From Epilithonimonas lactis (lineage in GTDB: Bacteria; Bacteroidota; Bacteroidia; Flavobacteriales; Weeksellaceae): DNA of 64,000 nt. Positions 2,359 to 42,683 of the stretch are shown here, piece by piece. The translations under genes and the position numbers were made by a program. Positions within the stretch are counted from its first letter, which is position 1. The number at the start of each line of letters is the position of its first letter. The notes under the pieces are model-generated. The model was not told the DNA's origin. It saw only the letters and a list, made by a program, of their open reading frames with translations, and ran no database searches. The stretch is from positions 558,001 through 622,000 of the forward strand of contig NZ_FOFI01000001.1 of the NCBI RefSeq assembly GCF_900110605.1. Direction: 5' to 3'.

Positions 2359-2446
2359 TTGCAGCCCGACTTGAGTGGAAATCCTTTTTTGTGGCAGGAA
2401 AAGCTAAGGCAAAAAGATTGGGAACGGAAGGCGGAAATAGCTGCCC
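2359..2446 (-). repeat. Structured interspersed element, copy A
   Basis: Read on the minus strand, it starts GGGCAGCTATTTCCG and ends with AAAAAAGGATTTCC, a short gap, and GTCGGGCTGC. The outer arms GCAGC and GCTGC are complementary, and a central CTTTTTG...CAAAAAAGG pairing surrounds a short variable loop. It forms a subgroup with copy D (35848-35954), which also lies between divergent genes and on the minus strand. Confidence 0.75.
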
Positions 2447-2495
2447 AAATAATTATTGTTAACAACATCCAACTTCCATCATCCAAACAAATCCT

Positions 2496-2503
2496 TATCT
2501 TTG
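2496..2503 (+). promoter_or_regulatory. -7 element TATCTTTG of the DHS-like gene
   Basis: TATCTTTG fits the Bacteroidetes -7 consensus TANNTTTG and lies 18 bases ahead of the ATG at 2521. This leaves a very short leader and argues against the longer upstream reading frame being translated. Confidence 0.55.
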
Positions 2504-2520
2504 CAAAAATCTTAAACAAA

Positions 2521-3495
2521 ATGAGCAAACCGATTACTGAGTTCATAGAAAAATATTATCTGCATTTCAATGCTGCGGCGTTGGTAGATGCGTCCAAAGG
2601 ATATGTTGCGCATCTTAAAGATGGCGGGAAAATGATGATCACGCTTGCTGGTGCAATGTCGACTGCGGAATTAGGAAAAATTCTTGCTGAGATGATCCGT
2701 CAGGGAAAAGTGGATTTCATTTCATGTACTGGTGCAAACCTTGAGGAAGACCTGATGAATCTTGTGGCGCACACGCATTACGAAAGAGTTCCAAACTATA
2801 GAGACCTTACACCGAAAGAAGAATGGGATTTGTTGGAAAGAGGCTTGAATAGAGTGACTGACACTTGTATCCCGGAAGAAGAAGCGTTCCGAAGATTGCA
2901 GAAGCATATCTACGAAATCTGGAAAGATGCAGACGAAAAAGGAGAAAGATATTTCCCGCACGAATATATGTACAAAATGATCTTGTCTGGCGTTCTTGAA
3001 CAGTATTACGAGATCCCGAGAGAAAATTCTTGGATGATCGCGGCGGCAGAGAAAAATTTACCAATCGTGGTACCAGGCTGGGAAGATTCTACAATGGGAA
3101 ATATTTTCACATCTTATTGTATCAAAGGCGATTTGAAGTTTTCTACAATGAAATCCGGAATCGAGTATATGGCCTATCTGGCTGAATGGTACCCGAAAAA
3201 TTCTGGTGGAAAAGGCGTTGGATTCTTCCAAGTTGGTGGTGGAATTGCAGGTGATTTCCCAATCTGTGTGGTGCCGATGTTGTACCAAGATATGGAGATG
3301 CATGATATTCCGTTCTGGAGTTATTTCTGTCAGATCTCAGATTCCACAACGTCTTACGGATCCTATTCCGGAGCAGTTCCGAATGAGAAGATCACTTGGG
3401 GGAAATTGGATATCAACACACCGAAGTTCATCGTGGAAAGTGATGCAACGATTTGTGCACCATTGATGTTCAGTTATATCTTAGAAAATTCATAA
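2521..3495 (+). CDS. Deoxyhypusine synthase-like enzyme
   Basis: The 324-residue protein has the deoxyhypusine synthase (DHS) fold family signature. Near the C-terminus it keeps the segment KITWGKL, whose Lys (about K295) matches the catalytic Lys that carries the aminobutyl intermediate in eukaryotic DHS. Other family-like stretches are SCTGANLEED (NAD-binding region) and GGGIAGDFPI. Bacteria lack eIF5A, so bacterial members are usually thought to work in polyamine chemistry such as homospermidine-type synthesis; that role is inference here. The frame is open back to 2359, but that part overlaps the repeat element and promoter, so I chose the ATG at 2521. It is monocistronic with a strong terminator. 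Confidence 0.88.
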   Translation: MSKPITEFIEKYYLHFNAAALVDASKGYVAHLKDGGKMMITLAGAMSTAELGKILAEMIRQGKVDFISCTGANLEEDLMNLVAHTHYERVPNYRDLTPKEEWDLLERGLNRVTDTCIPEEEAFRRLQKHIYEIWKDADEKGERYFPHEYMYKMILSGVLEQYYEIPRENSWMIAAAEKNLPIVVPGWEDSTMGNIFTSYCIKGDLKFSTMKSGIEYMAYLAEWYPKNSGGKGVGFFQVGGGIAGDFPICVVPMLYQDMEMHDIPFWSYFCQISDSTTSYGSYSGAVPNEKITWGKLDINTPKFIVESDATICAPLMFSYILENS

Positions 3496-3525
3496 AGTTA
3501 GAGGACGGAAGTCTTAGGCTTGAAG

Positions 3526-3570
3526 ATAAAAAAGAAAGCGTTCAAATTATTTTGAGCGCTTTCTTTTTTA
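3526..3570. terminator. Bidirectional terminator
   Basis: Long arms AAAAAAGAAAGCGTTCAAA and TTTGAGCGCTTTCTTTTTT flank a TTAT loop, with A and T tracts on both sides. It can serve the DHS-like gene on the plus strand and the small gene on the minus strand. Confidence 0.85.
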
Positions 3571-3588
3571 TGTTTTAATGTTGATGAT

Positions 3589-10829: not shown

Positions 10830-10900
10830 GGAGCTGTTTCCCGCTTTCCACTACAATCTTTTTTTTTCAAAAAAGGATTTCCGTTGCAATCGGGGCTAGG
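10830..10900 (+). repeat. Structured interspersed element, copy B (shortest)
   Basis: It runs from GGAGCTGTTTCCCGC to AAAAAAGGATTTCCGTTGCA and TCGGGGCTA. Here the central part is only a T9-C-A6 mini-hairpin, making this the minimal form of the family. Outer pairings AGC/GCT and CCCG/CGGG are present. It fills much of the 254-base gap between two PUL genes. Confidence 0.8.
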
Positions 10901-10975
10901 GGTTTTCAGTTCAAAACAACATTCAACACAAATAGAAGTTTTAAATTTCCAACCGTGTTTTTGAAAATTAAAAAT

Positions 10976-11702: not shown

Positions 11703-14030
11703 ATGAAAAAGTTTGTAATTCTAGCTGCGTTGGCCTTGTCGCCGTATTTTTTGGCGCAGGATATTATATCAAAACCTGTTCAGTCTTACCAATCCGCAAA
11801 TTATCAATCCAAGAAAAAAGCTTTCGTTGATAATTTGATTTCCAAAATGACTTTGGATGAGAAGATCGGTCAATTGAACTTGCCTTCTTCAGGAGATTTT
11901 ACAACCGGACAAACTCAGAATTCCGATATCGGAAAGAAAATAGAACAAGGATTAGTTGGTGGACTTTTCAATATCAAAGGTGTTGATAAGATTCGTGCGG
12001 TTCAAAAGGTGGCTGTTGAAAAAAGCCGACTGAAGATTCCAATGATCTTCGGGATGGATGTGATCCACGGTTACGAGACCACTTTTCCGATTCCATTGGG
12101 GATTGCATCTTCTTGGGATATGGATCTGATCCAAAGGTCAGCTCAGATCGCTGCTCAGGAATCGACTGCGGATGGGATCAACTGGACATTCTCACCAATG
12201 GTGGATGTTTCCAGAGATCCAAGATGGGGAAGGGTTTCCGAAGGTTCTGGTGAAGATCCGTACTTAGGCAGCCAAATTGCCAAAGCAATGGTTTACGGTT
12301 ACCAAGGTGATGACCTTTCCAAGAAAAATACCATGTTGGCTTGTGTGAAACACTTTGCACTTTATGGCGCGGCAGAAGCTGGTAGAGATTACAACACGGT
12401 GGACATGAGCCACGTTCAGATGTACAACACTTATTTTCCACCTTACAAAGCAGCTGTGGACGCTGGAGCGGCTTCTGTAATGGCTTCTTTCAATGAAGTA
12501 GACGGGATTCCTGCAACGGGGAACAAATGGTTGATGACCGATGTCCTTAGAAAACAATGGAACTTCAAAGGTTTTGTGGTGACGGATTACACAGGCATCA
12601 ATGAAATGATCGAACACGGAATGGGTGACCTTCAGCAAGTTTCTGCTTTGGCAATGAATGCTGGTGTGGACATGGATATGGTAGGTGAAGGGTTTCTGAA
12701 AACTTTGAAACAATCTGTTACAGAAGGGAAGGTTTCCGAGCAAACCATAACAGAAGCGACAAGAAGAATCCTTGAATCAAAATATGACCTGGGACTTTTT
12801 GATGATCCTTACAAATATACAGATTCCAAAAGAGCACAGAAAGAGGTTTTCAGCCCAAAACATTTGGAAGCTGCAAAAACGATCTCGTCTCAATCTATGG
12901 TTTTGATGAAGAACGACAAACAGATTCTTCCACTTAAAAAATCAGGAACTGTTGCAGTGATCGGTCCATTGGCAGACAATGCAGTGAACATGACCGGAAC
13001 TTGGAGTGTGGCTGCAAAACACGCCAATTCAATTTCAGTTTTAAGAGGTTTGAAGGAAACTGTGGGGAAAGACGTGAATTTCATCTATGCAAAAGGAAGC
13101 AACATCTACGAGTCCGAAGAGATGGAGAAAAAAGCGACGATGTTCGACAAAACTGCAGGTCGTGACAGTCGTTCTGCTGAGCAAATCAGAACAGAAGCAT
13201 TGGCCATTGCAAAACAAGCCGATGTGATTGTATTGACAATCGGAGAAAGTGCTGAGATGAGTGGTGAATCCAGCTCTAGAACAGATATCGGAATTCCAGA
13301 AACTCAGAAAGAACTTTTGAGAGAGCTTAAGAAAACTGGAAAACCGATCGTGGTGGTCCTATTCACAGGTCGACCATTGGTTTTGACGGAAGAATCCGAA
13401 TTGGCAGATGCTATCCTGAATGTTTGGTTCCCAGGAAGTATGGCTGGATATGCTGTTTCCGACGTTCTTTACGGAAAAGTGAATCCTTCCGCAAAATTGC
13501 CAATGACCTTCCCAAGAAGTGTAGGGCAAGTGCCACTTTATTACAACGCGAAAAATACAGGACGACCATTAAGTGTAGAAAATACAGAAAAATGTACGTT
13601 TGAGAAATTCCGATCCAATTATCTGGATGAATGTACAACGCCACTTTATCCTTTCGGATTTGGGTTGAGTTACACAACTTTCGGATATTCTGAGGTTTCT
13701 GTGAGCAATGCAAAACCAACAGGAAACACACCAGTCGAAGCTTCTGTAACATTGACCAACAGTGGGAAATATGATGGAGCGGAAGTGGTGCAGCTTTACA
13801 TCCGAGATGTGGTTGGAAGCATCACAAGACCAGTTAAAGAATTGAAAGGTTTCGAAAAAGTTTATTTGAAAGCTGGAGAAAGTAAAAAAGTTACTTTCAA
13901 GATCTCACCAGAAGATCTCAAATTCTATAATAATGATTTGAAGTTTGACTGGGAATCCGGCGATTTCGATATCATGATCGGAACCAATTCTCACGACGTG
14001 AAAACAACGAGAGTTAATTGGACCAAATAA
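11703..14030 (+). CDS. bglX: GH3 beta-glucosidase, BglX-like
   Basis: A 775-residue exported GH3 enzyme that releases glucose from the non-reducing end of beta-glucosides. The signal peptide ends FLAQD. Domain order is a TIM barrel with MTLDEKIGQL, the GMDVIHG motif and nucleophile Asp295 in FVVTDYTG, then the alpha/beta sandwich domain with IGESAEMSGES, then a C-terminal fibronectin-III-like domain (PVKELKGFEKVYLKAGESK). Length and order match E. coli BglX (periplasmic). It is the last gene of the locus before a strong terminator. With the GH144-like enzyme, the simplest scheme is that oligosaccharides entering through SusC/D are cut to glucose here. Preference for sophorose-type substrates is possible but unproven. 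Confidence 0.92.
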   Translation: MKKFVILAALALSPYFLAQDIISKPVQSYQSANYQSKKKAFVDNLISKMTLDEKIGQLNLPSSGDFTTGQTQNSDIGKKIEQGLVGGLFNIKGVDKIRAVQKVAVEKSRLKIPMIFGMDVIHGYETTFPIPLGIASSWDMDLIQRSAQIAAQESTADGINWTFSPMVDVSRDPRWGRVSEGSGEDPYLGSQIAKAMVYGYQGDDLSKKNTMLACVKHFALYGAAEAGRDYNTVDMSHVQMYNTYFPPYKAAVDAGAASVMASFNEVDGIPATGNKWLMTDVLRKQWNFKGFVVTDYTGINEMIEHGMGDLQQVSALAMNAGVDMDMVGEGFLKTLKQSVTEGKVSEQTITEATRRILESKYDLGLFDDPYKYTDSKRAQKEVFSPKHLEAAKTISSQSMVLMKNDKQILPLKKSGTVAVIGPLADNAVNMTGTWSVAAKHANSISVLRGLKETVGKDVNFIYAKGSNIYESEEMEKKATMFDKTAGRDSRSAEQIRTEALAIAKQADVIVLTIGESAEMSGESSSRTDIGIPETQKELLRELKKTGKPIVVVLFTGRPLVLTEESELADAILNVWFPGSMAGYAVSDVLYGKVNPSAKLPMTFPRSVGQVPLYYNAKNTGRPLSVENTEKCTFEKFRSNYLDECTTPLYPFGFGLSYTTFGYSEVSVSNAKPTGNTPVEASVTLTNSGKYDGAEVVQLYIRDVVGSITRPVKELKGFEKVYLKAGESKKVTFKISPEDLKFYNNDLKFDWESGDFDIMIGTNSHDVKTTRVNWTK

Positions 14031-14048
14031 GATTCGATTTTAAATAAT

Positions 14049-14086
14049 AAAAAAGCCTTTCAGATTTTCTCTGAAAGGCTTTTTTA
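14049..14086. terminator. Bidirectional terminator between bglX and the PQQ-type gene
   Basis: AAAAAAGCCTTTCAG and CTGAAAGGCTTTTTT arms pair across a 7-base loop. It serves the convergent genes on both strands. Confidence 0.9.
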
Positions 14087-14132
14087 ATAGAAAACTATAT
14101 AACTAATTACTCAGTAACTAAAAACTAGATCA

Positions 14133-25072: not shown

Positions 25073-25177
25073 GGAGCTATTTCCCGCTATCCACTATATC
25101 TTTTTTGTCCTCGACGTTTCGTAAACAATAGAACATTTGCACTAAGACAAAAAAGGATGCCGTTCCTATCGGGGCTA
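25073..25177 (+). repeat. Structured interspersed element, copy C
   Basis: It starts GGAGCTATTTCCCGC, has CTATCCACTATATC before the T6 run, and ends AAAAAAGGATGCC ... TATCGGGGCTA. Central arms TTTTTTGTC and GACAAAAAA differ from other copies yet still pair. It begins 11 bases after the PAP2 stop, between convergent genes. Confidence 0.85.
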
Positions 25178-25234
25178 TTGGCAATTCGGTATTCAAATTA
25201 AGATCCAGGATTTAAGAATCAAGAATTAATTTTG

Positions 25235-26736: not shown

Positions 26737-26816
26737 ATCATTATTAAATGAAATAATTAGCCAAAATCATTATATTTACAATAGTTAAAAAGCAACCAAC
26801 ATTAAAATATAATAAA

Positions 26817-26927: not shown

Positions 26928-26934
26928 TAATGAC

Positions 26935-30313: not shown

Positions 30314-30366
30314 CGGTTGGCTTTATCTCTAAACGAATATAAGAAAATTAATACAGATTATCAAGC

Positions 30367-30374
30367 TATATTTG
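30367..30374 (+). promoter_or_regulatory. -7 element TATATTTG of the VanZ-like gene
   Basis: An exact TANNTTTG match 29 bases upstream of the ATG. No -33 TTG is visible at normal spacing. Confidence 0.45.
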
Positions 30375-30402
30375 TACAGCTTTTTTATAATTAATTGGTT
30401 TA

Positions 30403-30837: not shown

Positions 30838-30840
30838 CAC
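30815..30840 (+). repeat. REP-like motif, CGAGAGCCTCAGC family, copy 2
   Basis: CTGCGAGAGCCTCAGCCTGA matches copy 1 (2273-2298) and the inverted copy 3 (46491-46515). It overlaps the 3' end of the VanZ-like gene. Confidence 0.65.
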
Positions 30841-30876
30841 CCTCAAATTCTCCGACTCTCTACTCTCCAACTCAAA

Positions 30877-31680: not shown

Positions 31681-31763
31681 TTGTGTTTTTTAGTTTTAAA
31701 TCTTTTACGAATTACAATTTACTGTCGTAATTTGCTAATTTAATAGTAAAGCTAAGAATTTAT

Positions 31764-32265
31764 TTATTTCCATTTTGCTCCGAAGGATACAATTAAGAAA
31801 TAAATAATAAACATTATTAAATTGGTTGTTAAGTTTACAAATATGAAAGGTCTAAGTAAATTCCAGCCTCTCATTTTCTGTTTTAATGCGAGTAAGTAAA
31901 ATGGAAATTCGATTATTAAAGTAGCAAGAAAAGAAACAAACATTCCAACTACAAAACCTTTTAATTCATATTCTCCTAATCTTGTTTTTCCTCCCCAAAA
32001 ATCAGTATTTCCACTAAGCTCAGAAAAATGTGGAGCGATATAATCCAACAAACATTGAAATATAATTCGCAAGAACAATGAGCCATTTTCTATTTAAAAC
32101 ATGGAACTTAGAAGTCAATGTTTTACTTTCATAAATTCCAATTATGGCGTTTATCCAAATTAAATGTAAGAATCCAAACCACATCATTGGTGAGCCTGCA
32201 TTTGCCAGAACAAAAATCGGTAATAAAATTAAAGCTAAAAGGATTAATGAATTTTCTTTACTCAT
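31764..32265 (-). pseudogene. Small membrane protein, split by a 2-base deletion
   Basis: Two frames abut. The upstream one starts with MSKENSLILL at 32265 and runs through LANYISMFVGLY before stopping. The downstream one resumes with IAPHFSELSGN and ends FGAKWK at 31764. Adding back one AT in the TTATATC run (about 32036-32042) joins them as VGLYIAPHF and restores a roughly 168-residue protein with four membrane helices. I do not recognise the family. It lies 20 bases after the DsbA-like gene on the same strand. The break may be real or an error. Confidence 0.7.
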
Positions 32266-32285
32266 TAAGATTCGTGTTCTTTGTT

Positions 32286-32987
32286 TTAGCAATTTCCATC
32301 AATTTTACAGGAATCACCTTCTTCGATAATTTTTAATTTGGAATCGTTTTCAGAAAATTCTGACCAGCTTTTTTCCAAAACTTCGGAAAAAAGGTCGATA
32401 GGTTGAGCACCGGAAACGCCATATTTTTCATTAAAAACAAAAAATGGAACACCTTTTATCCCTAAGGAATTGGCGGCGAAAATATCATTCTTTACCAACT
32501 TTGCCAACTCCGGAGATTGTACAGCGTCTTGGATTTCTTCTTTTGGAAATCCCAATTTTTCTCCAATTTCTGAAAGCACTTCAACATCATCAATATCTTT
32601 TCCTGATTTGAAATAAGCTTCAAAAAGAAGTTCTTCCATTTCATTCGCTTTTCCTTTTTCTTTCGCGATTTGAACCAACATTTGACTTTTGAAAGAATTA
32701 GAAACCTTCACGTCATCAAAATTAAAATCAATCCCAGCATTTTTCCCTGATTGGATCAGGTTTTCGTGCATTTGCATAATTTGAGCCATCGGAAAACCTT
32801 TCACTTCAGATAGATATTCGTAATGATTTTTGGCCAAATCGGTTTTCATATTGGGGTCGAGTTGGAACGAATGCCAATTGACCTCGACTTTATCATTCTG
32901 AGAAAATGTCTGAAGTGCTTTCTCAAAATTTCTTTTTCCGATGAAACAAAACGGACAACGTGTGTCACTCCAAATATCTACTTTCAT
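32286..32987 (-). CDS. DsbA-family oxidoreductase, FrnE-like
   Basis: A 233-residue cytosolic thioredoxin-fold protein (no signal peptide) of the DsbA/FrnE/2-hydroxychromene isomerase-like family. The active-site CPFC is at residues 11-14, right after strand one. The inserted helical domain follows, then the cis-Pro region GVPFFVFNEKYGVSGAQP near residue 175, typical of FrnE. The C-terminus has an unusual Cys-rich tail EGDSCKIDGNC. Such proteins are thought to act in redox or stress chemistry of the cytosol. It is probably cotranscribed with the broken membrane gene downstream. Confidence 0.88.
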   Translation of the reverse strand: MKVDIWSDTRCPFCFIGKRNFEKALQTFSQNDKVEVNWHSFQLDPNMKTDLAKNHYEYLSEVKGFPMAQIMQMHENLIQSGKNAGIDFNFDDVKVSNSFKSQMLVQIAKEKGKANEMEELLFEAYFKSGKDIDDVEVLSEIGEKLGFPKEEIQDAVQSPELAKLVKNDIFAANSLGIKGVPFFVFNEKYGVSGAQPIDLFSEVLEKSWSEFSENDSKLKIIEEGDSCKIDGNC

Positions 32988-33017
32988 TTTTTTATTTTCA
33001 GTATTTTCTAATTCTAC

Positions 33018-33050
33018 AACCCCTTCAGAGTTTCAAACTGTGAAGGGGTT
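33018..33050 (-). terminator. Terminator of murB
   Basis: AACCCCTTCA (33018-33027) and TGAAGGGGTT (33041-33050) form a GC-rich hairpin 11 bases after the murB stop. Confidence 0.75.
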
Positions 33051-33060
33051 TCTGATGTTT

Positions 33061-34074
33061 TTAAATAATATTCACTTCCCGTTCCAGCTCAATTCCGTAT
33101 TTTTCTTTTACGGAATCAATAATCATTGTTGAGAAATCAAAAATCTCCTTTCCAGTCGCATTCCCAGTTGCATTGATGATGACCAGAGCCTGAAGTTTAT
33201 GTGAAGCCACATTCCCGATTTGCTTTCCTTTCCAGCCACATTGTTCAATGAGCCAACCTGCAGGAACTTTTACAAAATCACCATTAGGATAACCAGGAAT
33301 ATTTTCGAATTTTAGTTTCAAAGTTTCATATTGTGCGAGCGGAATTGTCGGATTTTTGAAAAAACTTCCAGCATTTCCAATCTCTTTTGGGTCGGGCAAT
33401 TTGCTTTGTCTGATATTGATGACCGCTCTGGAAACATCTTGAATCGTCGGATTGATGATTCCCAAATTTTCCAATTCAGATTGGATGGCGCCATATTCCA
33501 CATCAATTCTATGGGTTTTTGTGGTCAGTCGGAAAGTCACTTCCAAAATCACATATTTCCCTTTTCCTTCCTGCTTGAAAATCGAATCTCTGTAACCAAA
33601 TCGGCATTGTTCCGAGTTCAGGGTTTCGAGTTCAAGGGTTTTAAGATTCAAAACTTTGCAACTTTCAAATACGTCCTTGATTTCCGTACCGTAAGCGCCA
33701 ATATTTTGCATCGGCGAAGTTCCGACGTTTCCTGGAATCAACGACAGATTTTCCAATCCACCATAATTTTTTTCCAGACAAAACATCACAAATTGATGCC
33801 AGTTTTCACCAGCTTTTGCAGTAACTAAAATTTCATTATCATTGATGATCTCCTCCGTAATTCCCTTCAGATTCAATCTAATTGCCAAACCTTCAAAATC
33901 CTTTGTCAAAAGCAGATTGCTTCCGCCACCTAGGAAGAGTTTGAGCGTTTGAGTGTTTGAGGATTTGAGAGTTTCTGTGAGTTCTTCTACTGAATTGACT
34001 TCAGCAAAAAATCTTGCGGATGCATCTACGCCAAATGTGTTGAAAGGTTTGAGAGAAATGTTTTCCTGGATCAT
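33061..34074 (-). CDS. murB: UDP-N-acetylenolpyruvoylglucosamine reductase MurB
   Basis: The 337-residue FAD enzyme reduces the enolpyruvyl group to give UDP-MurNAc in peptidoglycan synthesis. Visible: the start NTFGVDASARFF, FAD-binding GGGSNLLLT, PGNVGTSPMQNIGAYG, and the catalytic Ser in GNAGSFFKNP. Length fits the E. coli-type (type I) enzyme. The start overlaps the preceding lipoprotein stop by one base (TAATG), indicating coupling. Confidence 0.96.
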   Translation of the reverse strand: MIQENISLKPFNTFGVDASARFFAEVNSVEELTETLKSSNTQTLKLFLGGGSNLLLTKDFEGLAIRLNLKGITEEIINDNEILVTAKAGENWHQFVMFCLEKNYGGLENLSLIPGNVGTSPMQNIGAYGTEIKDVFESCKVLNLKTLELETLNSEQCRFGYRDSIFKQEGKGKYVILEVTFRLTTKTHRIDVEYGAIQSELENLGIINPTIQDVSRAVINIRQSKLPDPKEIGNAGSFFKNPTIPLAQYETLKLKFENIPGYPNGDFVKVPAGWLIEQCGWKGKQIGNVASHKLQALVIINATGNATGKEIFDFSTMIIDSVKEKYGIELEREVNII

Positions 34075-34523
34075 TATTTATACTGAGGAAGCAAATTATT
34101 CAATTCGGTTTTCAGTTTTTCCAATTGTTTGTAACCTACAGATCCAACGGGAACATTGTAAAATTCATATTCTTTGGAATCTGTAACGATGGTAAAGATC
34201 TGGTCTGGACCGTCATAATGTCCGCGTCTTTCGCCACTTTGGGTTTTTTCTAAAATTGAGATATCAATTCCGGAAACTAATTTTGTCCAATCCTTCGTGT
34301 TTATTTTCTTTTTGAAGCTTGGGAATTCCTCAGTTCTTCCACCTCTCGCAGATGATTCCAAAGAGTCTTTGCTCGCATTGATAAACGTTGCGCCGCCTCG
34401 TCCCATTGTATGTCTGTACGAAACCGATTTGATGGACGAAGTAGTTTGAGCAGTTGTTTTGCAGCTAAGCAAAAACAAACTGATTGCTGAAAGGACGAAT
34501 CCTATTTTGATAATTTTCATCAC
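34074..34523 (-). CDS. Hypothetical lipoprotein upstream of murB
   Basis: A 149-residue lipoprotein; lipobox Cys21 in LFLLSCKT. The mature part contains HTMGRGGATFINASKDS and ends with a helix KQLEKLKTELNNLL. It resembles short lipoproteins often found next to murB in Flavobacteriia, but I know no function. A second Met immediately after the first is an equally good start. It lies 14 bases after the aminotransferase and overlaps murB, so aminotransferase, lipoprotein and murB form one operon. Confidence 0.8.
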   Translation of the reverse strand: MMKIIKIGFVLSAISLFLLSCKTTAQTTSSIKSVSYRHTMGRGGATFINASKDSLESSARGGRTEEFPSFKKKINTKDWTKLVSGIDISILEKTQSGERRGHYDGPDQIFTIVTDSKEYEFYNVPVGSVGYKQLEKLKTELNNLLPQYK

Positions 34524-34537
34524 TGTATTTTTTTATT

Positions 34538-35740
34538 TTAATTAAATTCAGAATTGTATTGGGTGATCGCATCTTTCAGGATCTCAACACTTCTTTTCAG
34601 ATCTTCCTGTTTCAAAACGTAAGCGATCCTCACTTGTTTTTTTCCAAGTTCAGGATTGCTGTAGAAGCCACCCATTGGCGCGACCATTACGGTTTCACCG
34701 TTGTTAGAATAGCTTTCCAAAAGCCATTGTGCAAACTTCTCTGTGTCATCCACCGGCAATTCTACACCGCAGTAAAATGCGCCTTTTGGTTTTGGACAGA
34801 TAACACCGGGAATCTCATTCAATAATCCGACCAAAAGGTCACGGCGCTGTTTGTATTCCTCTCTTACTTTAGCAATATATTCTGCATCATTTTTGTGCGC
34901 AGCAGTTGCAGCAATCTGTCCCAATAGAACTGGACTCAATCTTGCCTGAGCAAAAAGAATTGCCGCGTCGTGGATTTTTTTGGAACGCGTGATCAGACAG
35001 CCAATTCTTGCACCACACATCGAATATCTTTTTGATTCAGAGTCGATGACGATGACGTTGTCTGCCACTTCTGGAAACTCGAACATAGAGATCTGTTGTT
35101 CTCCGTCGTAGACATATTCTCTGTAAACTTCGTCGGAAATAATGACGATATCGTGTTTCTTTGCGATCTCTGCCAATTGCTGAAGTTCTTCTCTTGAATA
35201 TAAATAGCCTGTTGGGTTTCCTGGATTACAGATAACAATCGCTCTTGTTTTATCTGTAATTCTCTCTTCAAATTCTTCGATTGCTGGTAAAGCAAATCCT
35301 GTATCAATCGTAGATGGAACAGCAACGATATTGATGTTGAAAGTTCCTGCAAATCCGTTATAATTTGCATAATATGGTTCTGGAATAATGATTTCGTCTC
35401 CATCATCACAAAGTGTGGAAATGGCGAAGTTCAGAGCTTCGGAACCACCGTTGGTTACGATGAAATTATCTGTGGTCAAATCTGTGAATCCTAAAGAATG
35501 GTAGTAATCTCTAAGCGCAGTTCTGTATTCCAGATTACCTTCGGAAAGTGCGTATTCGTAGATTTTGAGGTGGTTGTTTTTGATGGCTTCCAGCGCAGTT
35601 TCCGGCGTTTCGATATCGGGTTGACCAATATTGAGGTGGTAAACTTTGATTCCTTTCTGTTTTGCTGCTGTTGCAAACGGAACTAATTTTCTAACTGGAG
35701 AAGCGGGCATATGCTGAGCGCGCTGAGATATTTTCGGCAT
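34538..35740 (-). CDS. Class I/II PLP aminotransferase, aspartate-type
   Basis: A 400-residue fold-type I aminotransferase of the AspC/AraT group. PLP-linked Lys237 is in SESKRYSMCGARIG; VTNGGSEAL binds the phosphate; NPGNPTG and the DEVYREYVYDG segment are family constants, and the final Arg of VRIAYVL binds the substrate carboxylate. Likely interconverts aspartate or similar amino acids with 2-oxoglutarate; exact substrate not clear. First gene of a three-gene operon ending with murB, and divergent from the YiiX-like gene across a 307-base gap holding element copy D. Confidence 0.9.
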   Translation of the reverse strand: MPKISQRAQHMPASPVRKLVPFATAAKQKGIKVYHLNIGQPDIETPETALEAIKNNHLKIYEYALSEGNLEYRTALRDYYHSLGFTDLTTDNFIVTNGGSEALNFAISTLCDDGDEIIIPEPYYANYNGFAGTFNINIVAVPSTIDTGFALPAIEEFEERITDKTRAIVICNPGNPTGYLYSREELQQLAEIAKKHDIVIISDEVYREYVYDGEQQISMFEFPEVADNVIVIDSESKRYSMCGARIGCLITRSKKIHDAAILFAQARLSPVLLGQIAATAAHKNDAEYIAKVREEYKQRRDLLVGLLNEIPGVICPKPKGAFYCGVELPVDDTEKFAQWLLESYSNNGETVMVAPMGGFYSNPELGKKQVRIAYVLKQEDLKRSVEILKDAITQYNSEFN

Positions 35741-35847
35741 TGTTTATTGACTTTGGGATACAAAAATAGTGATTTTTTGGTTGTCAGTTGATAGTTTTCA
35801 AAATTCGAGAGAATGTGATTTGATGACAGATCGTGAACATTTGCGAA

Positions 35848-35954
35848 GCTGCAGCCCGGCCTGAGTGGAAATCCTTTTTTGCTTGTACTTACATTCTATT
35901 TGAACTGGAAACTTTCTGCAAAAAAGATTGGGAACGGAGGACGGAAAAGCTGCC
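35848..35954 (-). repeat. Structured interspersed element, copy D
   Basis: On the minus strand it reads GGCAGCTTTTCCG ... CGTTCCCAATCTTTTTTGC, a variable centre, GCAAAAAAGGATTTCC, and a closing CCGGGCTGC. Outer arms GCAGC/GCTGC match copy A. Central arms TTTTTTGC and GCAAAAAA pair. It sits between divergent genes, like copy A. Confidence 0.8.
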
Positions 35955-36034
35955 ATAAAAATATTTGTAAATAGCTTTCAACTCAAAGTCTAAAAATTAA
36001 TAAGTAAATGCTTTCTGTAATTTGAATCTTCAAT

Positions 36035-36042
36035 TATCTTTG
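36035..36042 (+). promoter_or_regulatory. -7 element TATCTTTG of the YiiX-like gene
   Basis: A TANNTTTG match only 5 bases ahead of the ATG, so the transcript would be nearly leaderless. The same TATCTTTGCA word occurs upstream of the DHS-like gene. Confidence 0.4.
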
Positions 36043-36047
36043 CAGCT

Positions 36048-36674
36048 ATGAAAAAATCGGTTTTACTTTTTTTGTTCTTGTTGACATTAAGTTGTAAAAC
36101 TTACAATACCTCAATTTTGGAAAACGGAGATCTGCTTTTTGTGCCTGCTGTGGAAACGGGATTGTCTGGCGCGATCAACAATGTGACGCAAACGGAAAAG
36201 AAAACTTCGTACGACCATATCGGAATCGTGAAGAAGGAATCTGAGCATTTGTACGTGCTCCACGCTGCTCCGAAAGGCGGCTCTCAGAAACAAAAACTCA
36301 ATTCTTTTTTGAAGGAGCAAACCAAACTTGGACAAAAAATTGACGTTTATCGTCTGAAAGAAGAATATCAAAGTATCATTCCAAATTCTGTTTCGAAGGC
36401 AGAAACTTTGGTTGGGAAACCTTATAATTTCAATTATATTCTCGACGAAAATTCCTATTACTGTTCAGATTTTGTGGAAAGGGCGTTTCGTGAGAATCAA
36501 ATCTTCACTTTGGAACCAATGACTTTCATCGACCCGAAAACGAAAACGACCAATGCGTTTTGGGAAAAATTCTATCAAGAAAGAAACCTGAAAGTTCCGG
36601 AAGGTGAGCCAGGCTGTAATCCCAATGGATTGGCGGCTTCTGAAAAATTGAGTAAAGTCGGGGAACTGAAATAA
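36048..36674 (+). CDS. YiiX-like permuted papain-fold lipoprotein
   Basis: A 208-residue lipoprotein (lipobox Cys16, LTLSC). The mature protein matches the YiiX/NlpC-P60-like permuted papain family: catalytic His57 in SYDHIGIV comes before catalytic Cys139 in YYCSDFVERAF, the inverted order that defines the permuted group. Such enzymes act as amidases or peptidases on cell-wall peptides or acyl bonds, probably in the periplasm here. The protein seems intact and alone in its transcript. Confidence 0.85.
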   Translation: MKKSVLLFLFLLTLSCKTYNTSILENGDLLFVPAVETGLSGAINNVTQTEKKTSYDHIGIVKKESEHLYVLHAAPKGGSQKQKLNSFLKEQTKLGQKIDVYRLKEEYQSIIPNSVSKAETLVGKPYNFNYILDENSYYCSDFVERAFRENQIFTLEPMTFIDPKTKTTNAFWEKFYQERNLKVPEGEPGCNPNGLAASEKLSKVGELK

Positions 36675-36701
36675 AATTTTTTAAATTTAATTCATACTTA
36701 T

Positions 36702-36731
36702 TTGGTGGGAATTAAATAATTTATATATTTG
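36702..36731 (+). promoter_or_regulatory. Consensus Bacteroidetes promoter of the leader RNA
   Basis: TTG at 36702-36704, a 19-base gap, then TATATTTG at 36724-36731. This is the best -33/-7 pair in the window. The predicted transcript start is at about 36737. Confidence 0.7.
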
Positions 36732-36737
36732 CAGTAG

Positions 36738-36852
36738 AATTAGAATTAAATGAAAGGCATCTTCTCTCAAATCATAATGTGTAACTCCAAGTAAATCATT
36801 GGATAGGAGAGAATATGTCATAAGCTTTACCTTTCCGGTAGAGCTTTTTTTA
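36738..36852 (+). ncRNA. Candidate structured leader or small RNA ahead of DUF4395
   Basis: Downstream of a consensus promoter, GGCATCTTCTCTC (36756-36768) pairs with GAGAGAATATGTC (36807-36819) in a 13-bp helix with one mismatch and one wobble. Inside it, TCCAA (36786-36790) pairs with TTGGA (36799-36803). A terminator hairpin AAGCTTTACC/GGTAGAGCTT with a T run follows (36822-36851), just 20 bases before the DUF4395 start. A 14-codon frame (36750-36794) could encode MKGIFSQIIMCNSK, overlapping the long helix. It may be an attenuator, a riboswitch or a free small RNA. It matches no riboswitch class I know. Confidence 0.6.
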
Positions 36853-36871
36853 TTTAAAAATTTTAAGAACG

Positions 36872-37303
36872 ATGAATCAAACAAATAAATTTTACACGGA
36901 CGAAAATACAATCAGATCGACTGCGTTTTTGGTGATCATTGTTCTCGCGGTAGCCCTTATTTTCAAGTGGCCGTATTTGGTTTTACTCTTAGTTTTTGAT
37001 TTTATTATGAGGGCTTTAGGCTTATCACTTTCTCCTTTAGCCCTTTTTTCAAGATCGATCTCGAAAATATTGGGATGGAAAAGGAAACCGATCTTCGCGG
37101 CACCTAAAAGATTTGCGGCGACACTGGGTTCTCTTTTTACATTATTGGTTTTTTTATTGATGCTCAATGGATTGTATGATCCGGCTTTCGCAGTCGGGTT
37201 TCTCCTGATCATCTTAGCAAGTCTGGAAAGCTTTTTCAAAATTTGTGTCGGCTGTTATCTCTATCAATTCCTTGTCGCTCCAATCCAAAATAAATTTAAA
37301 TAA
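36872..37303 (+). CDS. DUF4395 membrane protein
   Basis: A 143-residue inner-membrane protein with about four helices. The central RSISKILGWKRKPIFAAPKRFAA loop and the final ESFFKICVGCYLYQF, with Cys125 and Cys128, are family features of DUF4395. The paired cysteines in a membrane context suggest thiol or sulfur chemistry, but no function is known. It is 26 bases ahead of the NIL-domain gene, and both lie behind a promoter-terminator leader. Confidence 0.82.
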   Translation: MNQTNKFYTDENTIRSTAFLVIIVLAVALIFKWPYLVLLLVFDFIMRALGLSLSPLALFSRSISKILGWKRKPIFAAPKRFAATLGSLFTLLVFLLMLNGLYDPAFAVGFLLIILASLESFFKICVGCYLYQFLVAPIQNKFK

Positions 37304-37328
37304 TCAACTCACCAAAAAATATTCAATT

Positions 37329-37640
37329 ATGATCTATCCACAAGAAACGCAGAAAGGAGGCTTCTTTCAAAAGCCCACAAAGGAAATAATCCTGGAAATA
37401 GAACTGAATGGTAAAATAAGATTTGATATCCTGCTTTACACGATCTACAATCATTACAAGATCAGCTACAAGATCGTGAACGCGCATATCGAATATCTGA
37501 ATGGCAATAACTTCGGCAACGTAAAACTTCTTCTGAAGATCACGGATGACGAAATAGATAAGATCGAAAATTACCTTGGTGAATATAAACTGATGAGTTG
37601 CAAAATACCAGTCCTACAACAAACAAAGGAAGCTTCATAA
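37329..37640 (+). CDS. NIL-domain protein
   Basis: The ATG at 37329 gives a 103-residue protein; the longer frame starts inside the preceding gene. Residues about 20-95 look like a NIL domain (ACT-like fold): EIILEIELNGKIRFDILLYTI, then NFGNVKLLLKITDDEIDKIENYL. NIL domains sit at the C-terminus of methionine-importer ATPases (MetN) and in some ferredoxins, where they sense or bind ligands. A stand-alone copy behind DUF4395 hints at a sulfur-amino-acid link, which is inference. Confidence 0.75.
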   Translation: MIYPQETQKGGFFQKPTKEIILEIELNGKIRFDILLYTIYNHYKISYKIVNAHIEYLNGNNFGNVKLLLKITDDEIDKIENYLGEYKLMSCKIPVLQQTKEAS

Positions 37641-37657
37641 TGAGCTTCCTTTAATTT
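37624..37657 (+). terminator. Terminator overlapping the NIL gene stop
   Basis: AAGGAAGCT (37624-37632) pairs with AGCTTCCTT (37641-37649); T-rich tail follows. The stem begins inside the last codons. Confidence 0.8.
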
Positions 37658-37700
37658 TTTATAAATGATCAAGCTGTCGGCTGACAACTAAAATTACTAG

Positions 37701-39014
37701 TTATTGTTCGATTCTTCTGATGTCTGCGCCGATCGCTCTCAATCTTTCGTCGATATTCTCATAACCACGATCGATCTGTTCGATGTTCTGAATGATGGAT
37801 TTTCCTTCTGCAGAAAGCGCCGCGATCAACAAAGCATTTCCAGCTCTGATGTCTGGCGAAACCATAGATGTTCCTCTCAACGGTGTTTCCTGATTCATTC
37901 CGATGACGGTTGCTCTGTGTGGATCGCAAAGGATGATCTGCGCGCCCATATCAATTAATTTATCGACGAAGAACAAACGGCTCTCGAACATTTTTTGGTG
38001 GATCAAAACAGAACCTTTGGCCTGAGTTGCCACAACCAATATGATTGATAATAGATCCGGCGTAAATCCTGGCCAAGGTGCATCTGAAACAGTCAAGATC
38101 GATCCATCGATGAATTTCTGGATCTTGTAATTTTCCTGAGAAGGAATATAAATATCATCGCCTCTTTGTTCCAATTCAATTCCTAGTTTTCTGAAAGTAT
38201 TCGGGATCACGCCCAGTTCATTCCAGTTTACATCTTTGATGGTGATCTCCGATTTGGTCATCGCAGCTAACCCGATCCAAGAGCCGATCTCTACCATGTC
38301 TGGTAACATTCTGTGGTCTGTTCCATTCAATTTGTCAACACCTTCTACAATTAGAAGATTGGAACCGATTCCGGAAATATTTGCGCCCATTCTGTTCAGC
38401 ATCTTGCATAGTTGCTGAAGGTATGGTTCGCAAGCTGCATTGTAAATACTCGTTTTTCCTTTTGCCAAAACGGCAGCCATTACGATATTGGCTGTTCCGG
38501 TTACAGAAGCTTCTTCAAGAAGAATGAATTTTCCTTTCAATTCTTTAGCTCTTAGAGAATAATAAGCTTCTTCTTCATCATAAGTGAATTCTGCGCCCAA
38601 TTCCACAAAACCTTGGAAATGCGTGTCCAGACGTCTTCTTCCAATCTTGTCTCCGCCAGGTGTTGGCAAATAGGCTTCACCAAATCTCGCCAACATTGGA
38701 CCCAAGATCATCACAGAACCTCTCAGTTTTGCGCCATCTTTCTTGAATTCCTGAGATTTTATATAATCGAAATTGACCTCATCTGCTTTGAAAGTGTAGT
38801 CTCCTTTTCCGTTTTTCGTAACTTTTACGTTAAAATCCTGTAAGATGTCAATCAATTTGTTGACATCTTTAATATCCGGAATATTACTGATTCGCACCTC
38901 ATCTTCAGTCAACAAAACAGCACAAAGGATTTGTAAAGCTTCATTTTTCGCACCTTGTGGTGTGATCTCTCCGCTTAGTTTTTTTCCTCCTCGTATTTCG
39001 AACGCATTACTCAT
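37701..39014 (-). CDS. murA: UDP-GlcNAc 1-carboxyvinyltransferase MurA with Asp in place of the active Cys
   Basis: The 437-residue enzyme starts peptidoglycan synthesis by moving enolpyruvate to UDP-GlcNAc. It has the two-domain inside-out barrel with GAKNEALQIL near residue 21, SVMILGPMLARFG and PGFTPDLLSIILVVATQ. In E. coli the catalytic loop is PGGC, where Cys115 is the fosfomycin target; here it reads PGGDKIGRRRLD, with Asp122. The same change occurs in naturally fosfomycin-resistant groups such as mycobacteria and chlamydiae. The start overlaps the DUF4290 stop by one base. Confidence 0.96.
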   Translation of the reverse strand: MSNAFEIRGGKKLSGEITPQGAKNEALQILCAVLLTEDEVRISNIPDIKDVNKLIDILQDFNVKVTKNGKGDYTFKADEVNFDYIKSQEFKKDGAKLRGSVMILGPMLARFGEAYLPTPGGDKIGRRRLDTHFQGFVELGAEFTYDEEEAYYSLRAKELKGKFILLEEASVTGTANIVMAAVLAKGKTSIYNAACEPYLQQLCKMLNRMGANISGIGSNLLIVEGVDKLNGTDHRMLPDMVEIGSWIGLAAMTKSEITIKDVNWNELGVIPNTFRKLGIELEQRGDDIYIPSQENYKIQKFIDGSILTVSDAPWPGFTPDLLSIILVVATQAKGSVLIHQKMFESRLFFVDKLIDMGAQIILCDPHRATVIGMNQETPLRGTSMVSPDIRAGNALLIAALSAEGKSIIQNIEQIDRGYENIDERLRAIGADIRRIEQ

Positions 39015-39682
39015 TATTTTCTCTTGTTTTTATGGTTTTGGAAGTTATTCCTTCTGTTATTGTTGTTATTATTTTGATTTGGATTCCTGTTGTTACTATT
39101 GGGGTTCCTGTTGTTATTATTTCTGTTGGCAGCGTAGTAGATCTTGCTTCTTTCCAACGATTCCAAAGTGGTGAGGTCCAGTTTGTCATTCGAAAGTTCC
39201 TTCAAGTGGCGGAAGATCACATCATCCTGCACGTGTTCCTTGTTGTAGACATTGTAGGACTTTTTCATATTATTGGCGATCACGTGGGTCAAAGCTTCTT
39301 TCTCGTCGCCTTCTTCCAGTGCGATGGCTTTTTCTATCAATTGCAGGATGCTTTTCCCGTAGAATTTATAAGCATTATCCAAAGAAGGATAGTCCATTTT
39401 TCTAGGTTTTGTGATCAGGTCATCCGCAGAAAGTACCGGATACGGAGAATCTACGTCCAGATTGTGGTCTGCCAAAATAAACAAGTGGTCCCAAAGCTTG
39501 TGCTTGTAGTTTTCCTCATCGCGGAGATGTGGGTTTCTCTGTCCCATAAACTCGATGATGGCAAGCGCCATTTCATTTCTTTCTTCTTTGGTTTGCAGGG
39601 TTTTGCAATGCTCCACCAGCTGCTGTATGTTGCGCCCATATTCGGGCAGTAATAGTTGTGTTCTGTCGGTATTATAATCCAT
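39014..39682 (-). CDS. DUF4290 protein with Asn/Arg-rich tail
   Basis: I start at the ATG of MDYNTDRTQLLLPEYGRN; a Met three codons earlier is possible. Residues 1-185 are a helical DUF4290 domain found across Bacteroidetes (HLRDEENYKHKLWDHLF). The last 35 residues are almost only Asn, Arg and Lys, a disordered basic tail that may bind RNA or DNA. Translation is coupled to murA by a TAATG overlap, which suggests an envelope-linked role, still unproven. Confidence 0.85.
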   Translation of the reverse strand: MDYNTDRTQLLLPEYGRNIQQLVEHCKTLQTKEERNEMALAIIEFMGQRNPHLRDEENYKHKLWDHLFILADHNLDVDSPYPVLSADDLITKPRKMDYPSLDNAYKFYGKSILQLIEKAIALEEGDEKEALTHVIANNMKKSYNVYNKEHVQDDVIFRHLKELSNDKLDLTTLESLERSKIYYAANRNNNNRNPNSNNRNPNQNNNNNNRRNNFQNHKNKRK

Positions 39683-39755
39683 AATGTGCAAATATAAAAA
39701 TATAAAATCAGAAAAAATTCAATTTTAAAATTTTAGAAAAAACTAACAATTATTT

Positions 39756-39890
39756 GGGCGTGTCCCTTTGTTTCCCAACCGCAAGATCCCAACGCAAAAC
39801 AAGCGGGCCGTGCTTTCCGCTATATCTTTTTTCCACAGCCGCATTTTCCACCATCAAAAAAAGGATGCCGCTGCAATCACTCACGCAGCT
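39756..39890 (+). repeat. Structured interspersed element, copy E (chimeric outer part)
   Basis: The core blocks CTTTCCGCTATATC, the T6 run, AAAAAAAGGATGCCGCTGCA and ATCAC are those of the family. The left part (GGGCGTGTCCCTTTGTTTCCC to CAAGCGGGCCGTG) is not seen in the other copies. The outer arms are GCGTG and CACGC, again complementary but different in sequence. Confidence 0.75.
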
Positions 39891-39916
39891 ACAACGTCAA
39901 TTCACGCTACAACCAG

Positions 39917-40339
39917 TTAATTGATGAATTTTTTCCGCTGGTCCGCACTTGGTAAGAAACATTGGTTTGCAGCCAATTTTTTACGATTTCTGGAAACGAG
40001 ATTGTAGAATTGATTTCCAATTGCGTCAGGAAGTATCTTCCCAATTGAAGCTAACGAATAGATACCGCCAATTTCTGAAGCAATTTCCAAAATCGCCTGA
40101 TATTTGGTCAAATAGAAACTATCTGGTTTCCAAAGGTAAAGCGTATCAAAAACCTGGTTGGGCAGATTTCGTTCATTCAAAAACTTCTGCCCAAATTCCG
40201 ATTGTAATGACGAGAACAAGAACTTGTCATTTTTATCCTTCTCCAAGATCCATTGCACCCAATGGTTGCAAAATCCACATTCGCCATCATAGAAAACGAT
40301 GTTCTTGTCTTTGAAACTTACTGAGATATCTGTGGTCAT
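39917..40339 (-). CDS. DUF393 thiol-disulfide oxidoreductase-like (DCC) protein
   Basis: A 140-residue protein of the DCC/DUF393 family. The hallmark DxxCxxC is YDGECGFC, with Cys21 and Cys24 after the first strand, as in thioredoxin-like folds. Lys/Arg-rich SRNRKKLA follows near the C-terminus. Likely a cytosolic redox protein, role unknown. Its ATG overlaps the stop of the haem-binding gene by four bases (ATGA), so the two are translated together. Confidence 0.88.
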   Translation of the reverse strand: MTTDISVSFKDKNIVFYDGECGFCNHWVQWILEKDKNDKFLFSSLQSEFGQKFLNERNLPNQVFDTLYLWKPDSFYLTKYQAILEIASEIGGIYSLASIGKILPDAIGNQFYNLVSRNRKKLAANQCFLPSADQRKKFIN

Positions 40340-40797
40340 AAGGCGTTGGCTTGTTGGATTTGTTTCTGGACCATTCGGAAATAATCCACTAATTGTTTTC
40401 TTTGTTCATCGGTTAATTTCGCATCAGGATGTCCGAGCGTGTAACTTTCCAAAGGCATTTTCTTTTGCTCCACATATTCCGCAGCCTCTTCCAATTTATG
40501 AATTTGACGTTTGGAATCGTAGGTTGCAAATGTAGAGAAATTAAGTTCCAGTCTTGCTTCATCAATATGACTTTTCAAAAGCCAACCCGCTGGCTGAATG
40601 TAACTGTAAGCCGGATATTTGGTCTCGTTGGAATGACAATCGTAGCAAGAATTTCTGATGATGTTGGCAATCGGTTCCGGCGTGTTTTTAATCTTTATAA
40701 AATCCATTCCGTCGTTGGTCGCGGGATTCACTTTATCAATTTGAAAAAACTGGATCATAATGAAAGCCACCAATAGAATAATTAATACTTTTTTCAT
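40336..40797 (-). CDS. Haem-binding domain protein (CxxCH)
   Basis: I start at MKKVLIILLV (40797) rather than at the longer frame. The 153-residue protein has an uncleaved N-terminal membrane helix (residues 3-20) and a periplasmic domain with a c-type haem site SCYDCHSNE (Cys51, Cys54, His55). PF14376-type haem_bd features follow: YPAYSYIQPAGWLL and the final LTDEQRKQLVDYF. It could pass electrons or sense redox state. Coupled to the DCC gene, making a plausible thiol/haem redox pair. Confidence 0.88.
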   Translation of the reverse strand: MKKVLIILLVAFIMIQFFQIDKVNPATNDGMDFIKIKNTPEPIANIIRNSCYDCHSNETKYPAYSYIQPAGWLLKSHIDEARLELNFSTFATYDSKRQIHKLEEAAEYVEQKKMPLESYTLGHPDAKLTDEQRKQLVDYFRMVQKQIQQANAL

Positions 40798-41196
40798 AGT
40801 TTGATTTTGCATTAATATAACAAAATCTCGTCCAAAACTTAAAATCAAGAAGGAAGGCAGAATAATAATAGTGTATATGAAGTTTAATTTATCATAGTAG
40901 AATATTTAGCACTTAAGTTTAGATTAATTATAAAATAGTAGTTCACATTAGAACACATAAGTGATTCCTTAAGTGAACTCTAATAAGCATTTTATTTATG
41001 CTCTAAAGTGACTTTAGTGTTAAAATTAAAACATCAGTAGTCTCTAATCTCACAATCAAAACAATAAACCCAATCAAAACAACAATATTTCGTACATTTG
41101 CAAAAATTTTGGGCTTCGAAAGTCGAAGTAACCCATTCTTAACCAAGTCTTACGCTCAATGATTCTTAACCTGAGCTGAGACCAAGAAACAAATTT
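40798..41196. other. Intergenic region with der promoter and leader hairpin
   Basis: A 399-base AT-rich gap. TACATTTG at 41093-41100 fits the -7 consensus. The roughly 90-base leader holds a hairpin CTTCG-AAAGT-CGAAG with flanking GGG/CCC (41111-41135) and two copies of ATTCTTAACC. Further upstream is a near-palindrome CTAAAGTGACTTTAG and a degenerate duplication of GTTCACATTAGA/GTGAACTCTAATA. No open frame looks real. Confidence 0.5.
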
Positions 41197-42507
41197 ATGT
41201 CAAATATTGTCGCAATCGTTGGGCGTCCCAACGTAGGAAAATCCACATTATTTAATCGATTATTAGAAAGAAGAGAAGCTATCGTAGATTCCACTGCCGG
41301 CGTTACCAGAGACCGTCATTACGGAAAATCTGACTGGAACGGCGTTGATTTTACCGTGATCGACACAGGTGGTTACGACGTAGGAACAGACGACGTTTTC
41401 GAAGTGGAGATCCGCAAGCAGGTTCAATTGGCTGTGGACGAAGCAACCTCTATCATCTTTATGGTAAGCGTGGACGATGGACTTACAGACACCGATCAAG
41501 AGATCTTCGAATTATTAAGAAAATCAAACAAGCCTTTATATTTGGTAGTCAACAAAGTGGATTCTTCCAAAGAAGAACTTCCTGCAACCGAGTTTTACCA
41601 ATTAGGCGTTGAAAAATATTTCACTTTATCTTCCGCAACAGGCTCCGGAACTGGAGAATTGCTAGATGCTGTCGTGAGAGACTTCCCGACTACAGATTAC
41701 AAAGATCCGTTCGAAGGTTTACCAAAGATCACCATCGCAGGTCGTCCAAACGTAGGGAAATCTACAATGACGAACGCACTTCTCGATGTTGAAAGAAATA
41801 TCGTAACCGATGTTGCCGGAACTACAAGAGACAGTATCCAGACTTTGTACAACAAATTCGGACACGAGTTTGTGTTGGTAGACACTGCCGGAATGCGTCG
41901 TAAAGCGAAAGTTTCCGAGGATCTGGAATTTTATTCCGTAATGAGATCCATCCGCTCCATCGAATATTCCGATGTTGTGATCTTGATGGTAGATGCCACA
42001 CAGGGTTGGGAATCTCAGGATATGAATATCTTCGGATTGGCTCAAAAAAACAGAAAAGGAATCGTGATCCTTGTCAACAAATGGGATCTCATCGAGGACA
42101 AACACACCAACACGATCCGTGATTTCGAACAATCCATCAGAGACAAGATCGGTCAGTTCAACGATATTCCCATTCTTTTCGTTTCCGCTTTGACAAAACA
42201 AAGGATCCTGAAAGCCGTAGAAATGGCAATGGTCGTTTACGAAGACCGTAAGAAAAAGATCAAAACGTCCAAACTGAATGAAGTGATGTTGCCGATCTTC
42301 GAAGCAATGCCACCGCCATCCAACAAAGGAAAATACATTAAGATCAAATATTGTGTGCAGTTGCCAACGCCATCGCCACAGTTCGTATTCTTCTGCAACC
42401 TTCCGCAATATGTGAAGGAGCCGTACAAGCGATTCACCGAAAATCAACTTCGAAAAAACTTTGGTTTCACCGGAGTGCCAATCGAGATTTACTTCAGACA
42501 AAAATAA
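41197..42507 (+). CDS. der: Ribosome biogenesis GTPase Der (EngA)
   Basis: A 436-residue protein with two GTPase domains in tandem and a C-terminal KH-like domain, the arrangement unique to Der. G1 motifs GRPNVGKS occur at residue 8 and again near 182; G3 DTGGY and DTAGM; G4 NKVD and NKWD. Der helps assemble the 50S subunit. The promoter-like TACATTTG and a roughly 90-base structured leader precede it, and a terminator follows. Confidence 0.96.
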   Translation: MSNIVAIVGRPNVGKSTLFNRLLERREAIVDSTAGVTRDRHYGKSDWNGVDFTVIDTGGYDVGTDDVFEVEIRKQVQLAVDEATSIIFMVSVDDGLTDTDQEIFELLRKSNKPLYLVVNKVDSSKEELPATEFYQLGVEKYFTLSSATGSGTGELLDAVVRDFPTTDYKDPFEGLPKITIAGRPNVGKSTMTNALLDVERNIVTDVAGTTRDSIQTLYNKFGHEFVLVDTAGMRRKAKVSEDLEFYSVMRSIRSIEYSDVVILMVDATQGWESQDMNIFGLAQKNRKGIVILVNKWDLIEDKHTNTIRDFEQSIRDKIGQFNDIPILFVSALTKQRILKAVEMAMVVYEDRKKKIKTSKLNEVMLPIFEAMPPPSNKGKYIKIKYCVQLPTPSPQFVFFCNLPQYVKEPYKRFTENQLRKNFGFTGVPIEIYFRQK

Positions 42508-42512
42508 AATCC

Positions 42513-42550
42513 AAACCCTTTCTTAGTTCAAACTTCGAGAGGGTTTTTTA
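42513..42550 (+). terminator. Terminator of der
   Basis: AAACCCT and AGGGTTT arms around a 20-base loop, followed by a T run, 6 bases after the stop. Confidence 0.65.
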
Positions 42551-42555
42551 TTTTA

Positions 42556-42683
42556 GGAGCATCACGTGTCTATTTCTTTTCACCATTCCAACCCGCTATC
42601 CACTATATCTTTTTCTTTCAGGTTGCCACAGCTCGGACCAATGCAACCTAAAAGAAAAAGGATGCCGTTGCTATCGGGGCTAT
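42556..42683 (+). repeat. Structured interspersed element, copy F (long central stem)
   Basis: GGAGC is followed by a roughly 30-base insert, then ACCCGCTATCCACTATATC. The central arms TTTTTCTTTCAGGTTGC and GCAACCTAAAAGAAAAA pair over 17 positions with one mismatch. It closes with GGATGCCGTTGCTATCGGGG and CTA. It sits immediately after the der terminator. Confidence 0.85.

Follow-up and report, generated by a model that had tools for sequence, protein, structure and literature searches.

Short repeats of the BOX, ERIC, RUP and Correia types are intergenic and non-coding and carry conserved ends around a variable centre, and integron attC sites are folded single strands with a conserved stem, unpaired spacers and a variable terminal structure. 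Flavo-1, the Rfam family RF01705, was published in 2010 (Weinberg et al. 2010), and no function was given for it up to 2022 in the accessible text of PMC9723704, PMC2864571 and PMC9029176. In a stretch of 64,000 nucleotides of Epilithonimonas lactis (contig NZ_FOFI01000001.1, positions 558,001 to 622,000), here called the window, six stretches are members of Flavo-1, two of them under the gathering score, and the copies themselves are new members of this orphan family already in Rfam. The folded DNA strand, rather than RNA, may be what matters in these copies. In fold plan Flavo-1 is similar to attC sites but is scattered singly, not in arrays; from the BOX, ERIC, RUP and Correia types it differs in that its pairs covary while the loop bases stay fixed, and in that no target duplication was evident at one clean absent site. 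The closest working analogue would be the REP/BIME repeats, which like Flavo-1 are numerous, dispersed, intergenic, irregular stem-loops, some of them close behind stop codons; for Flavo-1, unlike REP/BIME with its RAYT, no link to a Y1 transposase gene was demonstrated.

Infernal searches with the RF01705 covariance model (gathering score, 42 bits) matched at each of the six sites, four of them over the gathering score. The family is thus the same as that of Weinberg et al. (2010) in Bacteroidota, with the evidence here leaning to a DNA-level role. The original prediction had described a structured, repeated, intergenic family of six look-alike stretches, and this description was correct, the stretches being real and at or near the places given. 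Its statement that no named family fits was wrong, and the proposed Rfam search returned the very outcome, a known family, that it had named as speaking against itself. The strands it had noted are the complement of those carrying the modelled structure. As a set, its options of a mobile stem-loop, a structured RNA or a DNA-binding site were reasonable, and its interpretation was partly supported overall.

Besides the Rfam model, a second model, R1, built from 39 copies (34 from Epilithonimonas sp. JDS and 5 from the window), and a core scan, a regular expression for the core requiring at least 4 of 5 pairs, were used. Applied to 800 kb of a related genome, the core scan gave 34 matches, against none in five base-composition shuffles, by which the copies are not chance, and it recovered five of the six copies in the window. 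Subfamily A includes the copies at 10833..10901 (minus strand, 71.2 bits, minimal apex), 25076..25180 (minus strand, 69.2 bits, T6..A6 apical stem with a long centre) and 42585..42685 (minus strand, 63.5 bits, with a 3' tail module), and the copy at 39802..39894 (minus strand, 52.3 bits) has a different terminal stem; all four exceed the gathering score. The two copies below it belong to subfamily B, with ends GCAGCCCGACTTGA.., namely 2345..2442 (plus strand, 37.5 bits, E 0.00022; CTGCAGCCCGACTTGAGYGG..GGCGG..GCTGCC, short apex), which matched the core scan and scored 77.5 bits with R1 as a member of its training set, and 35849..35951 (plus strand, 34.7 bits, E 0.0013; long centre), which was missed by the core scan and scored 61.7 bits with R1 from outside the training set. 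Five copies lie between called open reading frames (ORFs), as had been claimed for all six; the sixth, 2345..2442, overlaps the start of an ORF called at 2359-3495 (TTG start) and is probably also in a gene gap, because the translation from 2590 contains a deoxyhypusine-synthase match (residues 13-296 of 301). The copy at 42585 directly follows an inverted repeat and T run behind der, read by eye and absent from the listing of a hairpin scan with loops up to 8.

Further copies, whose lack would likewise have counted against the original prediction, were abundant in the same genome, with 131 RF01705 matches at E ≤ 0.001 (150 candidates scored), 75 of them over the gathering score. R1 matched 150 of the 150 candidates scored with it, 54 of which were not on the Rfam-model list, partly because the apex differs; with the 35 Rfam-model matches outside those of R1, the union of both models is 185, a number possibly low since R1 scored 150 candidates. 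Spacing between neighbouring copies was as expected from random placement, without clustering. All 23 genomes searched in the genus carried Flavo-1 (46-124 matches each), as did at least 73 of 196 genomes of the order and at least 44 of 296 of the phylum Bacteroidota, the last two being lower bounds owing to stricter filters and a limit on hits per genome. None of 14 control genomes, which were the coverage outside Bacteroidota, had a match. The EPSP-synthase protein of the window is 99% identical in strain JDS and 98% identical in Chryseobacterium sp. FP211-J200. Viral contigs held no exact match of two Flavo-1 patterns, and a plasmid search with one copy and a phage search with another gave no match; spread on viruses or plasmids was dropped for these patterns and copies.

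The anatomy was derived from 100 copies among those listed and from the alignment of 39. From the outside inwards, the element consists of a terminal stem, an outer stem around GAT/AGC, loop 1 (GnA or TGA opposite GGA), a 2-bp RY helix, loop 2 (GGA opposite GnA, or GGC/ATA, or GGT/ATA) and an apical module. The conserved part is thus a dyadic core, 5'-GnA-RY-GGA-3' or close variants on both arms, in which two purine internal loops flank the 2-bp helix within the outer stem. The GGA on the 3' side of loop 1 was demanded by the parser of 114 copies described below, and also by the free-pair scan, so its presence in 114/114 copies is by construction. The loop end, together with a 3' tail in some subfamilies, forms exchangeable modules. 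Apices of the T-run..A-run type, whose centres span 4-54 nt, were parsed in 78/100 copies; others were CCCAC..GAGG, TCCCGAT..ATCGGGA and, in two copies, minimal GAAA/GAAAA. Fragments like TTCGACTTCGCTCAG and CATTGCGA were seen inside apices or an arm (centres of parsed copies; locus L096), as if nested, and presumably belong to other intergenic repeats. Subfamily A ends in GCTCC in 53/73 copies, followed by about 6 A-rich nt and beyond that no consensus; on its 5' side it extends more weakly, over about 25 nt. A terminator-pattern scan of 24500-43300, which includes four copies, found one pattern in the copy at 39802, on the complementary strand, and none on the Flavo-1 strand. Elsewhere in the window, a strong hairpin followed by a T run at 14000-14092 (sub-threshold rli40 and other matches) is probably an ordinary terminator.

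Pairing in the core was almost strictly Watson-Crick. Across five core pairs in 114 copies (5/119 unparsed), 561 of 570 cells were Watson-Crick, 7 were G.T and 2 were other, against about 98 G.T expected under independence, and a scan leaving three pairs free gave 400 Watson-Crick, 4 G.T and 1 other in 405 cells of 135 distinct copies. Both counts were made without using the counted pairs, the 114 copies coming from the Rfam model. All four Watson-Crick states (A:T, T:A, G:C and C:G) were present at the pair designated X. In a control of 31 distinct tRNAs, all from loci of related genomes and none from the own genome, 65 of 651 stem pairs (10%) were G.U, and the difference from the 114-copy set was significant (Fisher P = 5e-12). 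The alignment of 39 copies, preselected for pairing, had 73 cells changed on both sides and 1 on one side over eight pairs; the requirement for at least 4 of 5 pairs makes the core scan, this alignment and R1 lean to paired copies. The outermost pair (column 8) failed in 22/39 copies, so it does not belong to the structure in general. Free pair identity, strict Watson-Crick pairing and purine loops that stay fixed on one strand point to intrastrand pairing and fit a protein recognising a folded single strand. Templated arm-by-arm correction would presumably also have erased the loop mismatches.

Flavo-1 copies are not oriented along transcription. Among 98 of 100 copies with two neighbours, both genes were antisense at 42, both sense at 22, convergent at 19 and divergent at 15; co-directional neighbours were antisense in 42/64 (P = 0.017). 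In a second genome (G201), 29 of the 30 best copies were placed, 12 antisense, 11 sense, 4 convergent and 2 divergent. Overlap of more than 40 nt with some called ORF was found in 23/100 copies, the ORF calls being mechanical. Where the 3' end of the copy faced the 3' end of a gene, 15/61 copies lay within 13 nt of the stop codon, compared with 3/41 for the other end of the copy; in the consulted part of PMC12306157, Escherichia coli REPs at 15 nt or less from the stop stall ribosomes.

These results bear on the possibility, which we regard as real if on the unlikely side, that Flavo-1 is truly a structured RNA, such as a hairpin bound by a protein within antisense transcripts or in the leaders or tails of mRNAs. 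RNA folds typically contain purine internal loops, and the minimal GAAA/GAAAA apices also favour this explanation, as does the Rfam type 'Gene; sRNA'. The table entry of Weinberg et al. (2010), as far as available, reads 'probably RNA, probably not cis-regulatory', and in the accessible text of PMC9723704 some 5' transcribed regions of Flavobacterium psychrophilum coincide with hits. Against it stand the wobble of about 1%, compared with 10% in tRNA stems, and the lack of orientation along transcription in two genomes, and the same text on F. psychrophilum reports hits indistinctly sense or antisense, without consistent orientation, and many beyond transcribed regions. Given so little wobble and copies that are not aligned with transcription, we prefer DNA to RNA.

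Conservation at individual sites was analyzed in strain JDS, where 26 of 100 copies had both flanks in the 800 kb examined; two were unparsed, and of the 24 parsed sites 19 had the core in both genomes and 5 had no intact core in JDS. Median identity in the 19 orthologous copies was 0.97 for the core arms, 0.68 for the flank and 0.50 for the centre, with arms above flank at P = 7e-5; centre identity was at most 0.55 in 11 copies and at least 0.65 in the other 8. The same five-pair haplotype was kept in 12/19 orthologues compared with 228/4465 paralogue pairs. Compensated pair changes were found at C6:164926 (contig and position; T:A to C:G) and at C7:600585 (A:T to G:C), where the apex differs too. 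The apical class differed at six sites, C7:382087, C7:537670, C6:55083, C6:247099, C7:493571 and C7:281549, with core pairs differing as well at the last three. From conserved arms, kept locus haplotypes and diverged centres it follows that the core was passed down in place at most sites and the apex often exchanged, for which gene conversion, template switching or re-insertion may be the route. Of the five sites without an intact core, C7:276659 was a clean absence in JDS, and no target duplication was evident at this single clean absent site. In the gap of the copy at 39802, an alignable copy was found in one of five relatives (L095; none in L093, L128, L096 and L097), and in the gap of that at 42585, four of six relatives had a copy (L092, L093, L096 and L097), L128 and L095 being not alignable. 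At the 35849 site, L097 was rejected as an empty site, as remnants point to a deleted copy.

High copy number, patchy occurrence in the order (at least 73/196 genomes), a sharp 3' edge and presence or absence at orthologous gaps would suit a purely selfish non-autonomous element of the miniature inverted-repeat transposable element (MITE) or REP type, functionless after insertion, with the constraint reflecting young copies and gene conversion. Orthologous arms about 97% identical next to diverged flanks, the locus-specific haplotypes mostly kept and the compensated changes at the two sites speak against it and make it improbable.

In a complete genome of the same genus (G022, single contig), the strand of 76/106 copies fitted two half-chromosome arcs, the best of 2000 permutations being 75; the strand switches near 0.7-0.8 and 2.76 Mb, not at dnaA (position 439). 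Strand polarity was not significant in a complete genome of another family (72/111, P = 0.127), and gene-symmetric gaps on three contigs had 16 copies on the major and 10 on the minor strand (P = 0.33). Replication polarity was dropped, as gene direction confounds it and only one of the two complete genomes gave a significant result. A duplex DNA-binding site for a nucleoid or chromosome-organising protein would agree with the mostly intergenic, genome-wide copies and the polarity in G022, but is very improbable, since pairing is kept while pair identity is free, which indicates pairing within one strand rather than duplex recognition of particular bases, the loops lack reverse complementarity, and the polarity was neither significant in the second complete genome nor free of confounding with gene direction.

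Y1 transposases were considered as a mobilising enzyme. In 196 genomes, Y1 and Flavo-1 matches occurred together in 61, Flavo-1 only in 12, Y1 only in 21 and neither in 102 (Fisher P = 1e-20), and 4 of 35 copy-rich genomes (at least 22 Flavo-1 matches each) had no Y1 match. The single Y1 match of the own genome, a 155-amino-acid ORF (L031, 1396-1863; contig C7 of G000, about 318 kb), is flanked by hairpins GTCGC[AG]GAGCGAC plus CTATTGGTAG, resembling a separate REP/RAYT system, with no Flavo-1 match in 3.3 kb around it. Repeats like those of this Y1 gene adjoin the Flavo-1 copy between der and the UPRTase gene at about 42700-43100 of the window. In genome G173, a Y1 gene (L305, 1823-2284) is separated by 243 bp from a Flavo-1 copy and has its own repeats around GTCCCGTAGGGAC and TTTGGGTA. 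Flavo-1 copies are dispersed intergenic imperfect palindromes, as expected of a REP/RAYT system, and did not flank the Y1 gene at either locus inspected. A Y1/RAYT mobilising enzyme was left unproven, given related genomes, the 4/35 copy-rich genomes without Y1 and the other repeats at both inspected genes.

The explanation we favour, with not quite even confidence, is that Flavo-1 is a dispersed REP/BIME-like stem-loop with a core under selection for its single-stranded fold, more likely of DNA, and is spread by a trans-acting factor. Selection would act on this fold site by site once a copy has inserted, for which the 19 orthologous pairs give support; the folded species would more likely be DNA than a transcript, such as a protein-bound hairpin on single-stranded or cruciform DNA, and a factor acting in trans would spread the copies. 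Several points weigh against this explanation. A small number of G.T pairs remain, including one shared by both orthologues (C6:103024), and predicted energies favour the Flavo-1 strand as RNA too (71/95; DNA, 83/95). RNA helices hemmed in by purine loops may likewise exclude wobble, which makes the G.U argument indirect, and the copies are related, so the counts are not independent events. At the 19 orthologous sites, centre below flank was not significant (P = 0.06), flank identity scored gaps as mismatches, and the orthologues were parsed by a score rewarding pairing. No protein partner and no mobilising enzyme were found for Flavo-1.

The accessible text of PMC9723704, PMC2864571, PMC9029176 and PMC12306157 does not describe Flavo-1 as a DNA element, nor its pairing rules, in-place conservation or apical exchange, subscription papers and supplements being outside this scope. 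A bolder form of the favoured explanation, which we hold to be doubtful, is that Flavo-1 is not an RNA gene at all and would comprise widespread chromosomal DNA hairpins with a self-complementary G.A-loop core, read as folded single-stranded DNA by a protein and kept by selection at well over 100 sites per genome, with apical modules swapped in place by an undescribed process. The small core with its natural mutant variants makes DNA, RNA and duplex forms directly comparable. If wobble pairs are truly excluded, the RNA label may be mistaken, and part of the Flavobacteriales would carry in this family an abundant DNA fold under selection.

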